64,000 nt of DNA from assembly GCF_019039215.1 (NCBI RefSeq), contig NZ_JAHNZZ010000001.1, forward strand, positions 1,019,658 to 1,083,657, written 5' to 3'. The position numbers and the translations under genes were made by a program. Shown here piece after piece: positions 42,149 to 46,121 of this stretch. Position 1 is the stretch's first letter. Each line of letters starts with the position of its first letter. This DNA comes from Bacillus sp. FJAT-29790 (GTDB lineage: Bacteria; Bacillota; Bacilli; Bacillales; Cytobacillaceae). Under the pieces are notes generated by a model, which had not been told where the DNA came from, did not search any database, and was given only the letters and a program-made list of their open reading frames with translations.

Positions 42149-42832
42149 TTACCATCTATAGTTAGGGAAAACACTGCGGGCTGTCGTATGGAATTCATTA
42201 TAGAAACCTGAAATTGGGTGGCCCATTCGAATACGATTTACATAACCACTCATTCGACCATAAAAATCGGGACTAACTGACACATATACATTCATAACGG
42301 CAGGATCAGCCATTTTTACTTGATTTATGATTTTACTTTCGAGTGTACTCGTTAATTCATTTGTGCCAGGAATAAATTTAGCAGCAACAAAGGCATTACG
42401 ATTTGAAACGATCGCATTTGCTTGATCAATTTCTGGCAACGCAAGAACCGCTTGTGCCACACGGTCTGCTACATACATATTTGGTGTTGCATTTAACGGA
42501 TTAAATCCAGTTCCAACTGGTCCAGTCATATTACCAGTCATATTGCCAGTGTAATTATTATTGTAGCCAGTGTTGTAATTGTAATTATCCCGATAGTTAT
42601 CCCGGTAATTAACTCGGTCATTAACCCGATAGTTATCCCGGAAATTATCCCGGTCATTAACCCGATAGTTATCCCGGAAATTATCCCCGGTAATCGGATT
42701 GCTCACGCGGGTCGGTCCTGTTACACCGTCCTGATTTCTGAGTGCTGTATCATTCACACCATGCCTATTGACACCACATGCGGAAAGAATAACAGCTGTT
42801 AATGCTACTGCGATTAAAGCTTGACGTTTCAT
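42149..42832 (-). CDS. YhcN/YlaJ-family sporulation lipoprotein
   Basis: 227 residues. Lipobox ILSAC near residue 20; an Asn/Arg/Asp/Tyr-rich low-complexity region (about 45-105) with 8-residue repeats such as DNYRVNDR; then the YhcN/YlaJ domain (VADRVAQAVLALPEIDQANAI...). Related proteins sit in the spore inner membrane and help germination. ATG 42832 behind AAGGAGTGATTTG. The repeat region is probably length-variable. Confidence 0.87.
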   Translation of the reverse strand: MKRQALIAVALTAVILSACGVNRHGVNDTALRNQDGVTGPTRVSNPITGDNFRDNYRVNDRDNFRDNYRVNDRVNYRDNYRDNYNYNTGYNNNYTGNMTGNMTGPVGTGFNPLNATPNMYVADRVAQAVLALPEIDQANAIVSNRNAFVAAKFIPGTNELTSTLESKIINQVKMADPAVMNVYVSVSPDFYGRMSGYVNRIRMGHPISGFYNEFHTTARSVFPNYRW

Positions 42833-42980
42833 CAAATCACTCCTTTTTATTTGTGGTTCTATGTTATATTTCCTTCTTTATTTCTTCATTATTCAACTGG
42901 ATTTAATTGCCGGAATTTGCGTTTGATAAAAGCAAAAGAATGGTAAAATAAAGAGAATAAAAAGCATGGGGGGAAATTAT

Positions 42981-43361
42981 TTGACGTATGTTTTTATCGG
43001 GGTTGGCGGTATAGTGGGGAGCTTGCTTAGGTATTTTACCTCAGTTTTATCAGTTCAGCTGTGGGGCAATCAATTCCCTTTCGGAACACTTTTCGTAAAC
43101 ATTCTCGGCGCCTTTCTGCTCGGCATTTTTACATGCAGAGTAAGTCAAAAAGGTAACCTTAGCCCTAATCTCGTACTAGCCATTGGCACGGGAGCGATCG
43201 GTTCTTTTACCACTTTGTCGACTTTAAGCATAGAAACCGTTTCTTTAATCGAAAGTGGTGCTTTCTTTAGTGCCTTTTTATACTTACTATTAAGTATGGC
43301 AGGCGGGATCTCGGCAGCATTTATTGGGTATCGGTGGAAAAGGGAGAAAAAGTACGGATGA
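42981..43361 (+). CDS. crcB: Fluoride ion channel CrcB (first of two)
   Basis: About 126 residues, four helices. GFGTLFVNILGAFLLG-like (PFGTLFVNILGAFLLG) and GAIGSFTTLSTLSIE carry the conserved Asn and Phe-box Phe residues of Fluc channels. TTG 42981 has GGGGGG upstream; ATG 42966 is an alternative adding five residues. The gene overlaps the second crcB by four bases (ATGA). No fluoride riboswitch was seen upstream. Confidence 0.9.
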   Translation: MTYVFIGVGGIVGSLLRYFTSVLSVQLWGNQFPFGTLFVNILGAFLLGIFTCRVSQKGNLSPNLVLAIGTGAIGSFTTLSTLSIETVSLIESGAFFSAFLYLLLSMAGGISAAFIGYRWKREKKYG

Positions 43362-43714
43362 TAAATATATTACTAATCGGAATTGGCGGTTTTTTAGGTG
43401 CAATAGCTCGTTACATAACAGTTAATTACATAAAAAGGAGATCACGGATAAAATTACCGATCGGAACCTTGACAGTCAATTTATTAGGTTCTTTTTTATT
43501 AGGATATCTATTAGGTATGGATGGAAAAGGGAGTTTGTTTTTATTTTTGGGAACCGGGTTTATGGGGGCTTTTACAACATTTTCGACGTTTAAATTAGAG
43601 GCGATCCAACTTGTGGATGCAAAGGAAAAACGGTCTGCTTTTAGTTATATCATTCTGACCTATGCGGGTGGAATTACACTGGCTTTTTTAGGAATGATTT
43701 TGGCGAGAATGTAA
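43358..43714 (+). CDS. crcB: Fluoride ion channel CrcB (second of two)
   Basis: 118 residues, four helices: PIGTLTVNLLGSFLLGYLLG and GFMGAFTTFSTFKLE. Tandem crcB genes in Bacilli are expected to encode the two halves of a heterodimeric dual-topology channel. The ATG overlaps the stop of the first gene, guaranteeing coupled translation. Confidence 0.9.
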   Translation: MINILLIGIGGFLGAIARYITVNYIKRRSRIKLPIGTLTVNLLGSFLLGYLLGMDGKGSLFLFLGTGFMGAFTTFSTFKLEAIQLVDAKEKRSAFSYIILTYAGGITLAFLGMILARM

Positions 43715-43756: not shown

Positions 43757-44542
43757 TTAATTAATTGGTGCTTCTTCAGTTTTTCCCACTTTTGGCGATT
43801 GGTATAGCTTTCTTCCTAGCAGTGTTTGTAATGTTAGGAAAATCCCGCCTACTGTCCAGTAAAGTGGAAGGGCAGCAGGGGCATTTAAGGAAACCATAAC
43901 AATCATTAAAGGTGAAAGGAGACCCATGAATTTCATTTGCTTTTGCTGCTGCAGAGGGATGTTCGATTGCGAAACCTTAAATTGTAGATAATAAACGATC
44001 CCTGCCGCCGCTGTTATCCAAATATCCGAATGACCAAGATTAAACCATAAAAAGGTATGGGCAGCAATTTCTTCATTTCCTCTGATGGCATAGTAAAATC
44101 CCATTAAAATGGGCATCTGAATCAGCATAGGCAAACAGCCGACGTTAAGTGGATTCACTCCATGTTTCTTGTAGAGACCAAACATTTCTTGCTGTAATTT
44201 TTGCTGTTCCTTCTGATCCTTTGTTGCTTTTATTTTCGCTTGAATCTCGTCCAATTCTGGCTTAAAGAGATCCATTTTTCCTTTCATCTGCTGCTGGTTT
44301 TTATATTGCTTTAGCATTAAAGGCATTAAAAGCAGCCTAATCGCTAGTGTGATTAAAATAATCGCAATTCCAAAGTTACCATGGAAAAAAGTGGCAACTG
44401 TATGGATCGAAGCTGCAAATGGTTCTACAAAAAGGCTGTGAAAAAAGCCGCTATTCTGCCCCGTCTGTGTCTGGCATGCTGACAAAAGCAGGGAAACAAT
44501 TGTAAGCATCATAAAAATGATAAGATTTTTTTTGTTTTTCAT
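43757..44542 (-). CDS. yidC: Membrane protein insertase YidC2 (OxaA/YqjG type)
   Basis: 261 residues. Lipobox LLSAC near residue 23, then a YidC/Oxa1 core with five helices; the hydrophilic-groove Arg (AIRLLLMPL) and the cytoplasmic coiled hairpin (KIKATKDQKEQQKLQQEM) are present. It inserts membrane proteins independently of or with Sec. A MifM-like leader lies 24 nt upstream and its coding end pairs with this gene's ribosome site, so I assign it as the regulated paralogue rather than SpoIIIJ. Confidence 0.92.
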   Translation of the reverse strand: MKNKKNLIIFMMLTIVSLLLSACQTQTGQNSGFFHSLFVEPFAASIHTVATFFHGNFGIAIILITLAIRLLLMPLMLKQYKNQQQMKGKMDLFKPELDEIQAKIKATKDQKEQQKLQQEMFGLYKKHGVNPLNVGCLPMLIQMPILMGFYYAIRGNEEIAAHTFLWFNLGHSDIWITAAAGIVYYLQFKVSQSNIPLQQQKQMKFMGLLSPLMIVMVSLNAPAALPLYWTVGGIFLTLQTLLGRKLYQSPKVGKTEEAPIN

Positions 44543-44551
44543 CTGTCAAAC

Positions 44552-44590
44552 TCCTCCTATTGTTTTTTAATACGTCAATAGTAAGGAGCT
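44552..44590 (-). promoter_or_regulatory. Hairpin that sequesters the yidC2 ribosome site
   Basis: On the minus strand, CTCCTTACTATTG (end of the leader gene) pairs with CAATAGGAGGAGT (yidC2 Shine-Dalgarno), with a small bulge. A ribosome halted near the leader's SSLLL codons would open it. Confidence 0.75.
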
Positions 44591-44857
44591 TATAACTTCC
44601 GGATCATCACCGGGACCTTCTTTTTTACGAATACATTTTGTTATCCAGTTAAGCAAAATGCTACTTGCTAAATAGTGTTTTATTTGCTGTTTAGGAATAT
44701 TTGCTTTGGAAACTTCATGCGGGTCATTTAAAGAATCTATAAAATGATATTCAATATTCCACACCCACAGAAACTTAATGATTAAGCCGATCATAAAGGT
44801 TCCATAAATGGTATATTCAGCGGGAATATTCGAGATATCCATGAGAAAATCCAACAT
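44567..44857 (-). CDS. mifM: MifM-like translation-arrest leader peptide of yidC2
   Basis: 96 residues, close to the 95 of B. subtilis MifM. One membrane segment (about 18-34) is followed by a long soluble part. The C-terminus, NWITKCIRKKEGPGDDPEVI then SSLLLTY, can be aligned with MifM (W-I, an acidic cluster 13-16 residues later, then SLLL) as I remember that protein. MifM stalls the ribosome when membrane insertion fails, freeing yidC2 translation. ATG 44857 follows GAGGTGAAAAAG. Overall identity is low, so this is an assignment by position, layout and arrest region. Confidence 0.78.
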   Translation of the reverse strand: MLDFLMDISNIPAEYTIYGTFMIGLIIKFLWVWNIEYHFIDSLNDPHEVSKANIPKQQIKHYLASSILLNWITKCIRKKEGPGDDPEVISSLLLTY

Positions 44858-45194
44858 CTTTTTCACCTCGAAATTAAGGTCAATAGAATAATTATAATTC
44901 AAAATGGCTTCCTTCGCAATCGAATCTGGCAAACATGATCCTCTCTTTTATTACGAAAAAAAGTGAAAAAAGTTTCCTTCTTATTACGATTATTTCGGAA
45001 TATAGTAGATTACGGTAGATTTAAGGGAGAACACAAGGTCTGTGTGACTTGTTGGCCGTCAGCTAGCCATCAGTGTGTAAGAACACATTTTATCAGTAAA
45101 AGACCCGGGAATTTAGTCATTTGTTATTGTACACTCTATCAGGAAGTTATAGAATATTACTTGGACTTATTAACTGATTGAACGGTGGGGTATC
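44858..45194. other. 337-bp divergent intergenic region
   Basis: Contains promoters for the leader gene and for the gene at 45195, not resolved by eye. A TGTGTGACTTG...CACAC-type imperfect pairing around 45040-45080 is weak. No RNA gene recognised. Confidence 0.35.
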
Positions 45195-46121
45195 TTGTCT
45201 TTCCAAAAGCGAAAAGTGTTTTTTTTGATGGCTAAAATATTGATTCCTGTTTTAATATTATTCTTGCTGAGCTATGAGGCGAAGGGATTATTTAAAGATT
45301 TCAATTGGGATTTACTTAACTTATACTTGGACAGGCTTTCTTTTCAAAAAGTCATTATGATTCTTATCCTGGGTTTGATATCACTATTTCCAATGTTTTT
45401 TTACGATGTTATTCTATTGCGGATATTTCATATCCATATCCCGAAAAGAAAACTTGTTTTTTATTCATTGTCTGCGAATGCCTTTTCCAATCTTGTTGGG
45501 TTCGGAGGAGTGGCAGGAGCAACATTACGATCCTATTATTATCGGAGATATTTGCCAGATAGCGTACCGTATATTCGGATTATCGCGAAACTGTCTTTAT
45601 TTTACTTAACAGGTCTTTCGCTGTTAGCATGGCCAGTTATTTTCTCCGATTTACATGTTTATTCAGATATAAAGTTAATAAAAATGGCCGTCTGGGTGAT
45701 TGTCGCCTACACACCATTATTAATTACCGTCTTCTTTTTTAGAAAAACGTTTTGGAATTTGCAGTATCTAAACCGGGGCTATATTGCTGAGCTGATGATC
45801 ATCTCCATTTTCGAATGGTTTTTTGTGATTGTTTGTATTTGGGGAATAACTAATTTTTTAGGGGTCTCTGCGCCACTGCACATTCTTTTTCCAATAGTGA
45901 TCATTTCCGCATGTGCGGGAATTGTTAGCATGATCCCGGGTGGGATTGGCTCGTTTGATCTCGTTTTTTTAATCGGGATGGAGTCACACGGGATTCCAAC
46001 AGAACTCAGCCTGTTAATCATCATGTTTTACCGTCTCAGCTATTACATCTTTCCGGTTATACTTGGCACGCCATTTGTCCTGCACCAACTATGGGTGAAA
46101 AGAAAACCGCAGAAAAAATGA
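45195..46121 (+). CDS. Lysylphosphatidylglycerol-synthase-like membrane protein (UPF0104, flippase half only)
   Basis: 308 residues with about eight helices. FSNLVGFGGVAGATLRSYYYR and MIPGGIGSFDLVFLIGM are hallmark stretches of the UPF0104/AglD and MprF N-terminal membrane domain. The C-terminal aminoacyl-lipid synthase of MprF is absent. Likely flips or transports a lipid. TTG 45195 follows GGTGGGG. A terminator follows directly. Confidence 0.82.
   Translation: MSFQKRKVFFLMAKILIPVLILFLLSYEAKGLFKDFNWDLLNLYLDRLSFQKVIMILILGLISLFPMFFYDVILLRIFHIHIPKRKLVFYSLSANAFSNLVGFGGVAGATLRSYYYRRYLPDSVPYIRIIAKLSLFYLTGLSLLAWPVIFSDLHVYSDIKLIKMAVWVIVAYTPLLITVFFFRKTFWNLQYLNRGYIAELMIISIFEWFFVIVCIWGITNFLGVSAPLHILFPIVIISACAGIVSMIPGGIGSFDLVFLIGMESHGIPTELSLLIIMFYRLSYYIFPVILGTPFVLHQLWVKRKPQKK

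Follow-up and report, generated by a model that had tools for sequence, protein, structure and literature searches.

The question raised by this locus is whether the short open reading frame that precedes a yidC gene in the window (the whole 64,000-nucleotide stretch of Bacillus sp. FJAT-29790 DNA that was analysed) encodes an arrest peptide of the MifM kind, and how the departures of its sequence from that of B. subtilis MifM should be understood. The features concerned are these:

44891..44919, minus strand: candidate sigma-70-type promoter, TTGCGA-17-TATAAT, with 10 of 12 matches
44864..44869, minus strand: leader Shine-Dalgarno (SD) sequence GAGGTG, the same element as before the leaders of a sister clade
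44570..44857, minus strand: leader ORF of 96 aa, probable MifM orthologue (ATG at 44857, stop codon TAA at 44569-44567)
44753..44809, minus strand: membrane segment, residues 17-35, from hydropathy (dN/dS 0.07 over codons 2-40 in relatives)
44597..44659, minus strand: putative arrest core, residues 67-87, ILLNWITKCIRKKEGPGDDPE, gapless to MifM 69-89 (dN/dS 0.10)
44576..44592, minus strand: 5′ arm (anti-SD) of a predicted hairpin, within codons 89-94, which encode ISSLLL and belong to a tail of low dS
44547..44562, minus strand: 3′ arm of the predicted hairpin, with the yidC2 SD AGGAGG (44553-44558)
43757..44542, minus strand: yidC2, secondary YidC insertase of 261 aa (Pfam 60KD_IMP, 147 bits)

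The leader lies directly upstream of the yidC gene, as in the MifM family, with a gap of 24 nt to the yidC2 ATG (44542). The other YidC of the genome is encoded on a different contig, in the order rnpA-yidC-jag-mnmE (the names of its neighbours were read from the proteins by eye), and it is because this copy sits in the rnpA-jag locus that the gene of the window is considered the secondary one, yidC2. By gene order, a second YidC (SpoIIIJ) is thus present elsewhere, as in the MifM system, its constitutive expression being a predicted trait. The promoter is a tentative assignment, six such sites being found in the region against 5.5 expected by chance.

The leader contains one hydrophobic segment, whose best 19-residue Kyte-Doolittle mean (1.57, residues 17-35) is borderline with respect to the cut-off of 1.6 usually applied to membrane segments. 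Judged by hydropathy, there is an N-terminal localisation signal followed by 61 residues, where at least 30 are expected of the family. A preliminary description of the locus had attributed to the leader the length, the single membrane segment and the position of MifM, and all three were confirmed.

Other genes of the neighbourhood were observed in passing. Two overlapping small membrane ORFs (42966-43361 and 43334-43714) resemble a paired CrcB/Fluc fluoride channel; a lipoprotein-like ORF (42149-42835) carries DNYRVNDR/DNFRDNYR repeat units, recognised by eye; and, divergently from the leader, 45195-46121 encodes a stand-alone MprF-type flippase domain (LPG_synthase_TM, 308 aa) with the synthase part absent.

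Relation of the putative arrest core to MifM

The sequence of B. subtilis MifM (YqzJ) was identified through PDB 3j9w, chain AZ. Its residues 68-90, HRITTWIRKVFRMNSPVNDEEDA, match residues 66-88 of the window leader, SILLNWITKCIRKKEGPGDDPEV, in a gapless alignment. In this alignment W71-I72 falls on MifM W73-I74, R77 corresponds to MifM R79, which is kept, and D84-D85-P86-E87 stands opposite D86-E-E-D89, with three acidic residues instead of four, since MifM E88 is replaced by Pro86. Thus, the W-I pair and the acidic group 13-16 residues after it, noticed in the preliminary description, are borne out, and its remark that the Met-Asn and Arg positions differ was right as well: MifM M80-N81 is K78-K79 in the window and R69-I70 is I67-L68, while H68 is replaced by S; the conserved R77 had not been singled out. 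The B. subtilis arrest motif is given as RIxxWIxxxxxMNxxxxDEED, with R79 marked as x (PMC7897499), and in the structure R79 and N81 contact Arg66 of L4 (PMC4423224). Four of the six published critical residues (R69, I70, M80 and N81) are absent from the window leader.

The extent of the homology was estimated with hhalign. The 43-row family profile matched an alignment of seven Bacillus leaders with E 3.2e-6 and a probability of 88% over 29 columns, which cover the core only; the N-terminal half of the profile stayed unaligned to Bacillus MifM, including the membrane segments. The family HMM alone scored B. subtilis MifM poorly (E 0.09-0.12). Sequence homology is established here by hhalign, MMseqs2 being the procedure of the published clusters. 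A 5-residue window with a charge below -0.3 between residues 70 and 100 is another mark of the MifM family (PMC10987492), and GDDPE at 83-87 gave -0.6 by a simple charge count (not idpr). The two leaders share further their size (96 and 95 codons), the single N-terminal membrane segment, the place before yidC2, the SD hairpin, the secondary YidC as target and the gapless match of W-I, R79 and acidic patch. On the sequence criteria that can be decided, the window leader is assigned to the MifM homology family, while it departs from the narrower B. subtilis motif at R69-I70, at M80-N81 and at one of the acids. With considerable confidence, it can be regarded as a MifM orthologue, that is, a predicted YidC-monitoring arrest peptide of a known kind.

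Searches of the leader against Pfam, NCBIfam, PHROGs and PDB sequences returned no family, an NCBIfam tRNA ligase match at E 0.02 being rejected as chance, and an Rfam scan of 44400-45200 gave nothing. The genome's own uL22 carries F85 and M90, residues that in B. subtilis are tied to contact with MifM and to species specificity (PMC4423224). Other YidC-linked arrest peptides, CliM of Clostridia and ApcA of Actinobacteria, combine a membrane segment and a C-terminal arrest before a yidC gene, CliM being reported there as free of sequence similarity to known arrest peptides and ApcA as carrying RAPG (PMC13183943, PMC7897499, PMC10987492). The window leader follows the same logic, with a predicted arrest, and has neither RAPG nor KYxIW.

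How unusual the core of the window is was judged from 58 non-redundant family leaders (<70% identity) and 48 other representatives, mostly from the order, which include B. subtilis and some same-family leaders found only by profile. In the family set, W71 occurs in 43 leaders (R in 12), I72 in 50, K74 in 42, R77 in 51 and K79 in 52; D or E occupies position 84 in 53, position 85 in 57 and position 87 in 56, while position 86 is acidic in just five and mostly P, S or T. In 45 of the 58 family leaders and in 20 of the 48 others, [RK]77 and [KR]79 occur together with acidic residues at all three of the positions 84, 85 and 87. Among the latter, R or K stands at 77 in 42, K79 is present in 32, and D or E in 44 at position 84 and in 44 at position 85. 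Met-Asn at the place of MifM 80-81 is limited to B. subtilis among the 106 representatives, and R-I at the place of R69-I70 occurs in three of them. These frequencies should be read with the bias towards consensus of leader sets mostly collected by similarity, and the consensus is weaker outside the family set; the three leaders that were located by way of their yidC2, independently of their own sequence, fit it.

Leaders from named Bacillus species (pumilus, safensis, altitudinis, paralicheniformis, sonorensis and others; L197-L213) show the core WISKVIRMKxSSNDDEDH in seven aligned rows, six from named species records and one from a further genome. As they have IRMK, there is Lys at the place of Asn81, as in the window; they differ from it in retaining M80 and R69-I70 and in an acidic patch DDED.

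Since R77, K79 and the acids are the commonest residues of the family, the window leader is typical of it. To call it a strongly diverged example, as the preliminary description did, is therefore misleading (R77 in 51/58, K79 in 52/58, D/E 85 in 57/58), the Met-Asn pair occurring, among the 106 representatives, in B. subtilis only. The related suggestion that the needs of the arrest motif could be redefined is reasonable as a question about the whole family and not as one about an oddity of the window.

A more far-reaching reading can be held only tentatively, and we think it rather unlikely as a whole. According to it, the arrest core of the leaders of the window's family and of many beyond it would be WI-x-K-x-I-R-x-K-x4-D-D-x-E, with the residue at the place of R79, marked as unimportant in B. 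subtilis, as the key tunnel contact and with Glu88, to which blocking of the A site is ascribed, replaced mostly by Pro, Ser or Thr; for these two reasons stalling would proceed by different contacts, with the register shifted by one codon, and one sister clade would start its leader at AUC or AUU.

Distribution, selection and start codons

With the single window sequence as query, the leader was recovered from 147 of 193 family genomes. The 43-row profile matched 174 of the 193 and 22 of 25 genera, the 43 rows themselves coming from these family genomes and so matching by construction. At wider range it matched 76 of 299 order genomes and 24 of 398 class genomes; of the class matches, 12 are family or order genomes already matched at order level. 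The remaining 12 matches have weak E values (0.001-0.01), yet at least one of them (L159) does adjoin a YidC gene on its upstream side. In 108 of 110 homologue loci, the stretch from 160 nt before to 60 nt after the assigned yidC2 start contains the end of an ORF of 60 codons or more. From the 84 loci L113-L196, thirteen were excluded, with no yidC2 by tblastn at E 1e-3 (L124, with a profile E of 1.3e-12, is among them), as were three further ones with no leader ORF under the rule used; L035, L045 and L073 were dropped before counts, 107 of 110 being kept.

The presence of the leader goes together with that of a second YidC. Of the 19 family genomes with no profile match, 14 have a single YidC gene (two of these assemblies are incomplete, 66% and 85%), as compared to two YidC genes in 14 of 14 hand-picked leader-positive genomes (Fisher P 1.5e-5; copies were counted in 33 genomes and in the window's own). 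Among the other five of the 19, G040, G041 and G063 have a leader with the core [RK]RKE[SA]PDDSDE, missed by the profile; in G095 only a fragment of yidC2 is left, accompanied by a second YidC1-like gene; and in G159 yidC2 is preceded by another gene, no leader being found there. The leaders with this [RK]RKE[SA]PDDSDE core (L240, L241 and L242, in three genomes of the genus) show little likeness N-terminal to it, and these different-looking leaders suggest that leader turnover may be quick. Another observation concerns L048, where a near-repeat of the leader end, the SD and the yidC2 5′ end is placed between leader and yidC2.

Selection was estimated by pairwise comparison of relatives, with 65 close pairs drawn from 17 groups. 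The dN/dS of the leader was 0.16 overall. It was lowest in codons 2-40 (0.07) and in the core, codons 67-87 (0.10), higher in the spacer, codons 41-66 (0.24), and highest in the tail, codons 88-96 (0.83); the dS of the tail was 0.156 versus 0.29-0.37 elsewhere in the leader. The membrane segment and the core are thus under purifying selection and the tail is not; what constraint there is on the tail acts on the RNA and scarcely on the encoded protein. This has a consequence for the SLLL near the C-terminus, which had been counted in the preliminary description among the similarities to MifM. With a tail dN/dS of 0.83 and a lowered dS, SLLL was rejected as an arrest element, and codons 89-94 form the anti-SD arm of the predicted hairpin.

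The same comparative data dispose of a chance ORF with a chance hairpin, for which the short length speaks and nothing else, and which is already refuted by the occurrence in 174 of 193 family genomes, the low dN/dS and the conservation of the hairpin, leaving it a practically nil probability.

The window leader starts with ATG. Things are different in 13 leaders of a sister clade within the same genus (L033, L034, L036, L039-L044, L046-L049), none of whose first 16 codons is ATG, GTG or TTG. Their SD (GAGGTGA) is overlapped by an in-frame TGA, and ATC (12 leaders) or ATT (one) stands at the place of the ATG. The pattern GAGGTGA-N6-ATH-TTTGA was matched by 15 of 36 genus genomes; in the other two of the 15, L035 and L045, there is an ATG two codons upstream of the ATC, and the L045 leader is frame-broken. 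It seems, from this arrangement, that the leader of the sister clade starts at AUC or AUU behind a strong SD, and such a start is possibly IF3-sensitive. R77 is Leu in this clade. In 11 of its leaders dN/dS was 0.36 for codons 2-20, 0.19 for 21-38, 0.42 for 39-64 and 0.14 for 65-86, values that indicate a peptide seemingly still selected, more loosely at its start. The starts assigned to 107 leaders (ATG 50, TTG 41, ATC 12, GTG 3, ATT 1) are so often other than ATG that weak initiation appears to recur. The leaders nearest to that of the window are L004, L006, L008, L011 and L013 (46-62% identity), in conflict with a quick YidC2 tree with flagged long branches, which places the window beside the AUC-start clade with support 82.

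Predicted RNA switch and proposed mechanism

The last codons of the leader had been proposed to pair with the yidC2 SD, and this is supported by folding and strengthened by the comparison with relatives. The predicted hairpin of the window has 16 pairs and -16.0 kcal/mol, as compared to -5.5 ± 2.1 for shuffled sequences (z -5.1, a value reached by 0 of 200 shuffles). A longer fragment gave z -2.8, with 4 of 200 shuffles equally stable. All six SD bases are paired in the minimum-energy fold, so the yidC2 SD would be sequestered by the leader end. Synonymous recoding of the last 16 codons was applied to 93 of 104 representatives, 11 being dropped with no SD found after the stop. The mean probability of SD pairing with these codons was 0.87 for the natural and 0.57 for the recoded sequences, higher in 88 of the 93 (Wilcoxon 4e-16), and individually P was at most 0.05 in 38 of the 93. 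For the window the pairing was 0.96 versus 0.76 after recoding (P 0.21), a non-significant difference because its protein tail already favours pairing. One leader, L111, had a pairing of 0.04 in this test, yet its SD is paired when a shorter stretch of the sequence is folded. By these fold predictions, the yidC2 SD hairpin is conserved among relatives.

The position of the hairpin was analysed in 91 representatives with an SD pairing of at least 0.5. Counted from the first base of the codon that aligns to E87, the SD partners lie at a median of 15.2 nt downstream (MAD 1.5, s.d. 6.4), within 8-20 nt of codon 87 in 75 of the 91 and outside that range in 16. The offset from codon 87 hardly varies with tail length (rho 0.20, P 0.06), as compared to the distance to the stop codon (rho 0.65). 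As modelled, it is thus the arrest core, rather than the stop codon, to which the RNA switch is anchored.

Plain translational coupling, in which any ribosome on the leader would open the hairpin and let yidC2 be translated with no programmed arrest, should be weighed at this point. The hairpin and the tight spacing would alone suffice for it, and in some relatives the leader stops beyond the assigned yidC2 start. However, coupling has no need of a core conserved at dN/dS 0.10, nor of an anti-SD anchored to codon 87 instead of the stop, and we hold it to be very improbable. Still less probable is that the leader product works mainly as a small membrane partner of YidC2, arrest being secondary or absent. 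It would agree with the strong conservation of the membrane segment (dN/dS 0.07, and Y18 kept in 55 of the 58 non-redundant family leaders) and with the co-occurrence of leader and yidC2; against it, the core aligns to the MifM arrest segment and the anti-SD is anchored to that very core. It is nevertheless true that the conservation of the membrane segment exceeds the needs of a plain anchor, and this counts against a pure arrest reading.

The favoured reading remains that of an arrest peptide monitoring YidC, and the stall, its site, its release by insertion and the induction of yidC2 can be inferred along the following lines. In the basal state, the yidC2 SD would be buried in the 16-pair hairpin, whose 5′ arm is provided by the last codons of the leader. 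The nascent chain would hold the ribosome near codons 87-90, probably through tunnel contacts of W71-I72, R77 and K79, with the acids of D84-D85-E87 close to the peptidyl transferase centre. With its leading edge roughly 15 nt downstream of the first P-site base, the stalled ribosome would cover the anti-SD and so free the yidC2 SD. Insertion by YidC of the membrane segment, about 53 residues before the stall, would pull the chain and end the stall; therefore, yidC2 would be induced only when insertase capacity falls short.

As to the site, the P site is expected mainly at codon 88, because E87 would then be at position -1 with nearly the whole SD free. A P site at codon 88 or 89 would free the SD and one at 85 would not; a stall at D85/P86, with Pro in the A site, is considered less likely, as the leading edge would reach only about codon 90 and the SD would stay paired. 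If the stall is at 87-90, the end of the membrane segment would be some 52-55 residues from it, the median given for MifM being 54 (PMC10987492).

Three points are new with respect to the sources cited here, namely the consensus of the family, the way in which the RNA switch is anchored, and the sister clade with its apparent AUC/AUU start, the alignments of the 572 published MifM homologues lying outside this comparison. As far as these sources tell, the MifM motif was defined through mutating the B. subtilis peptide. The natural variation of about 100 non-redundant leaders suggests a division of the contacts into general ones and ones specific to B. subtilis, the prediction being that R77, K79, D85 and E87 would be needed and Met-Asn would be dispensable. 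An anti-SD anchored at the arrest codon may, in addition, offer a way to predict stall sites in similar leaders from sequence alone.
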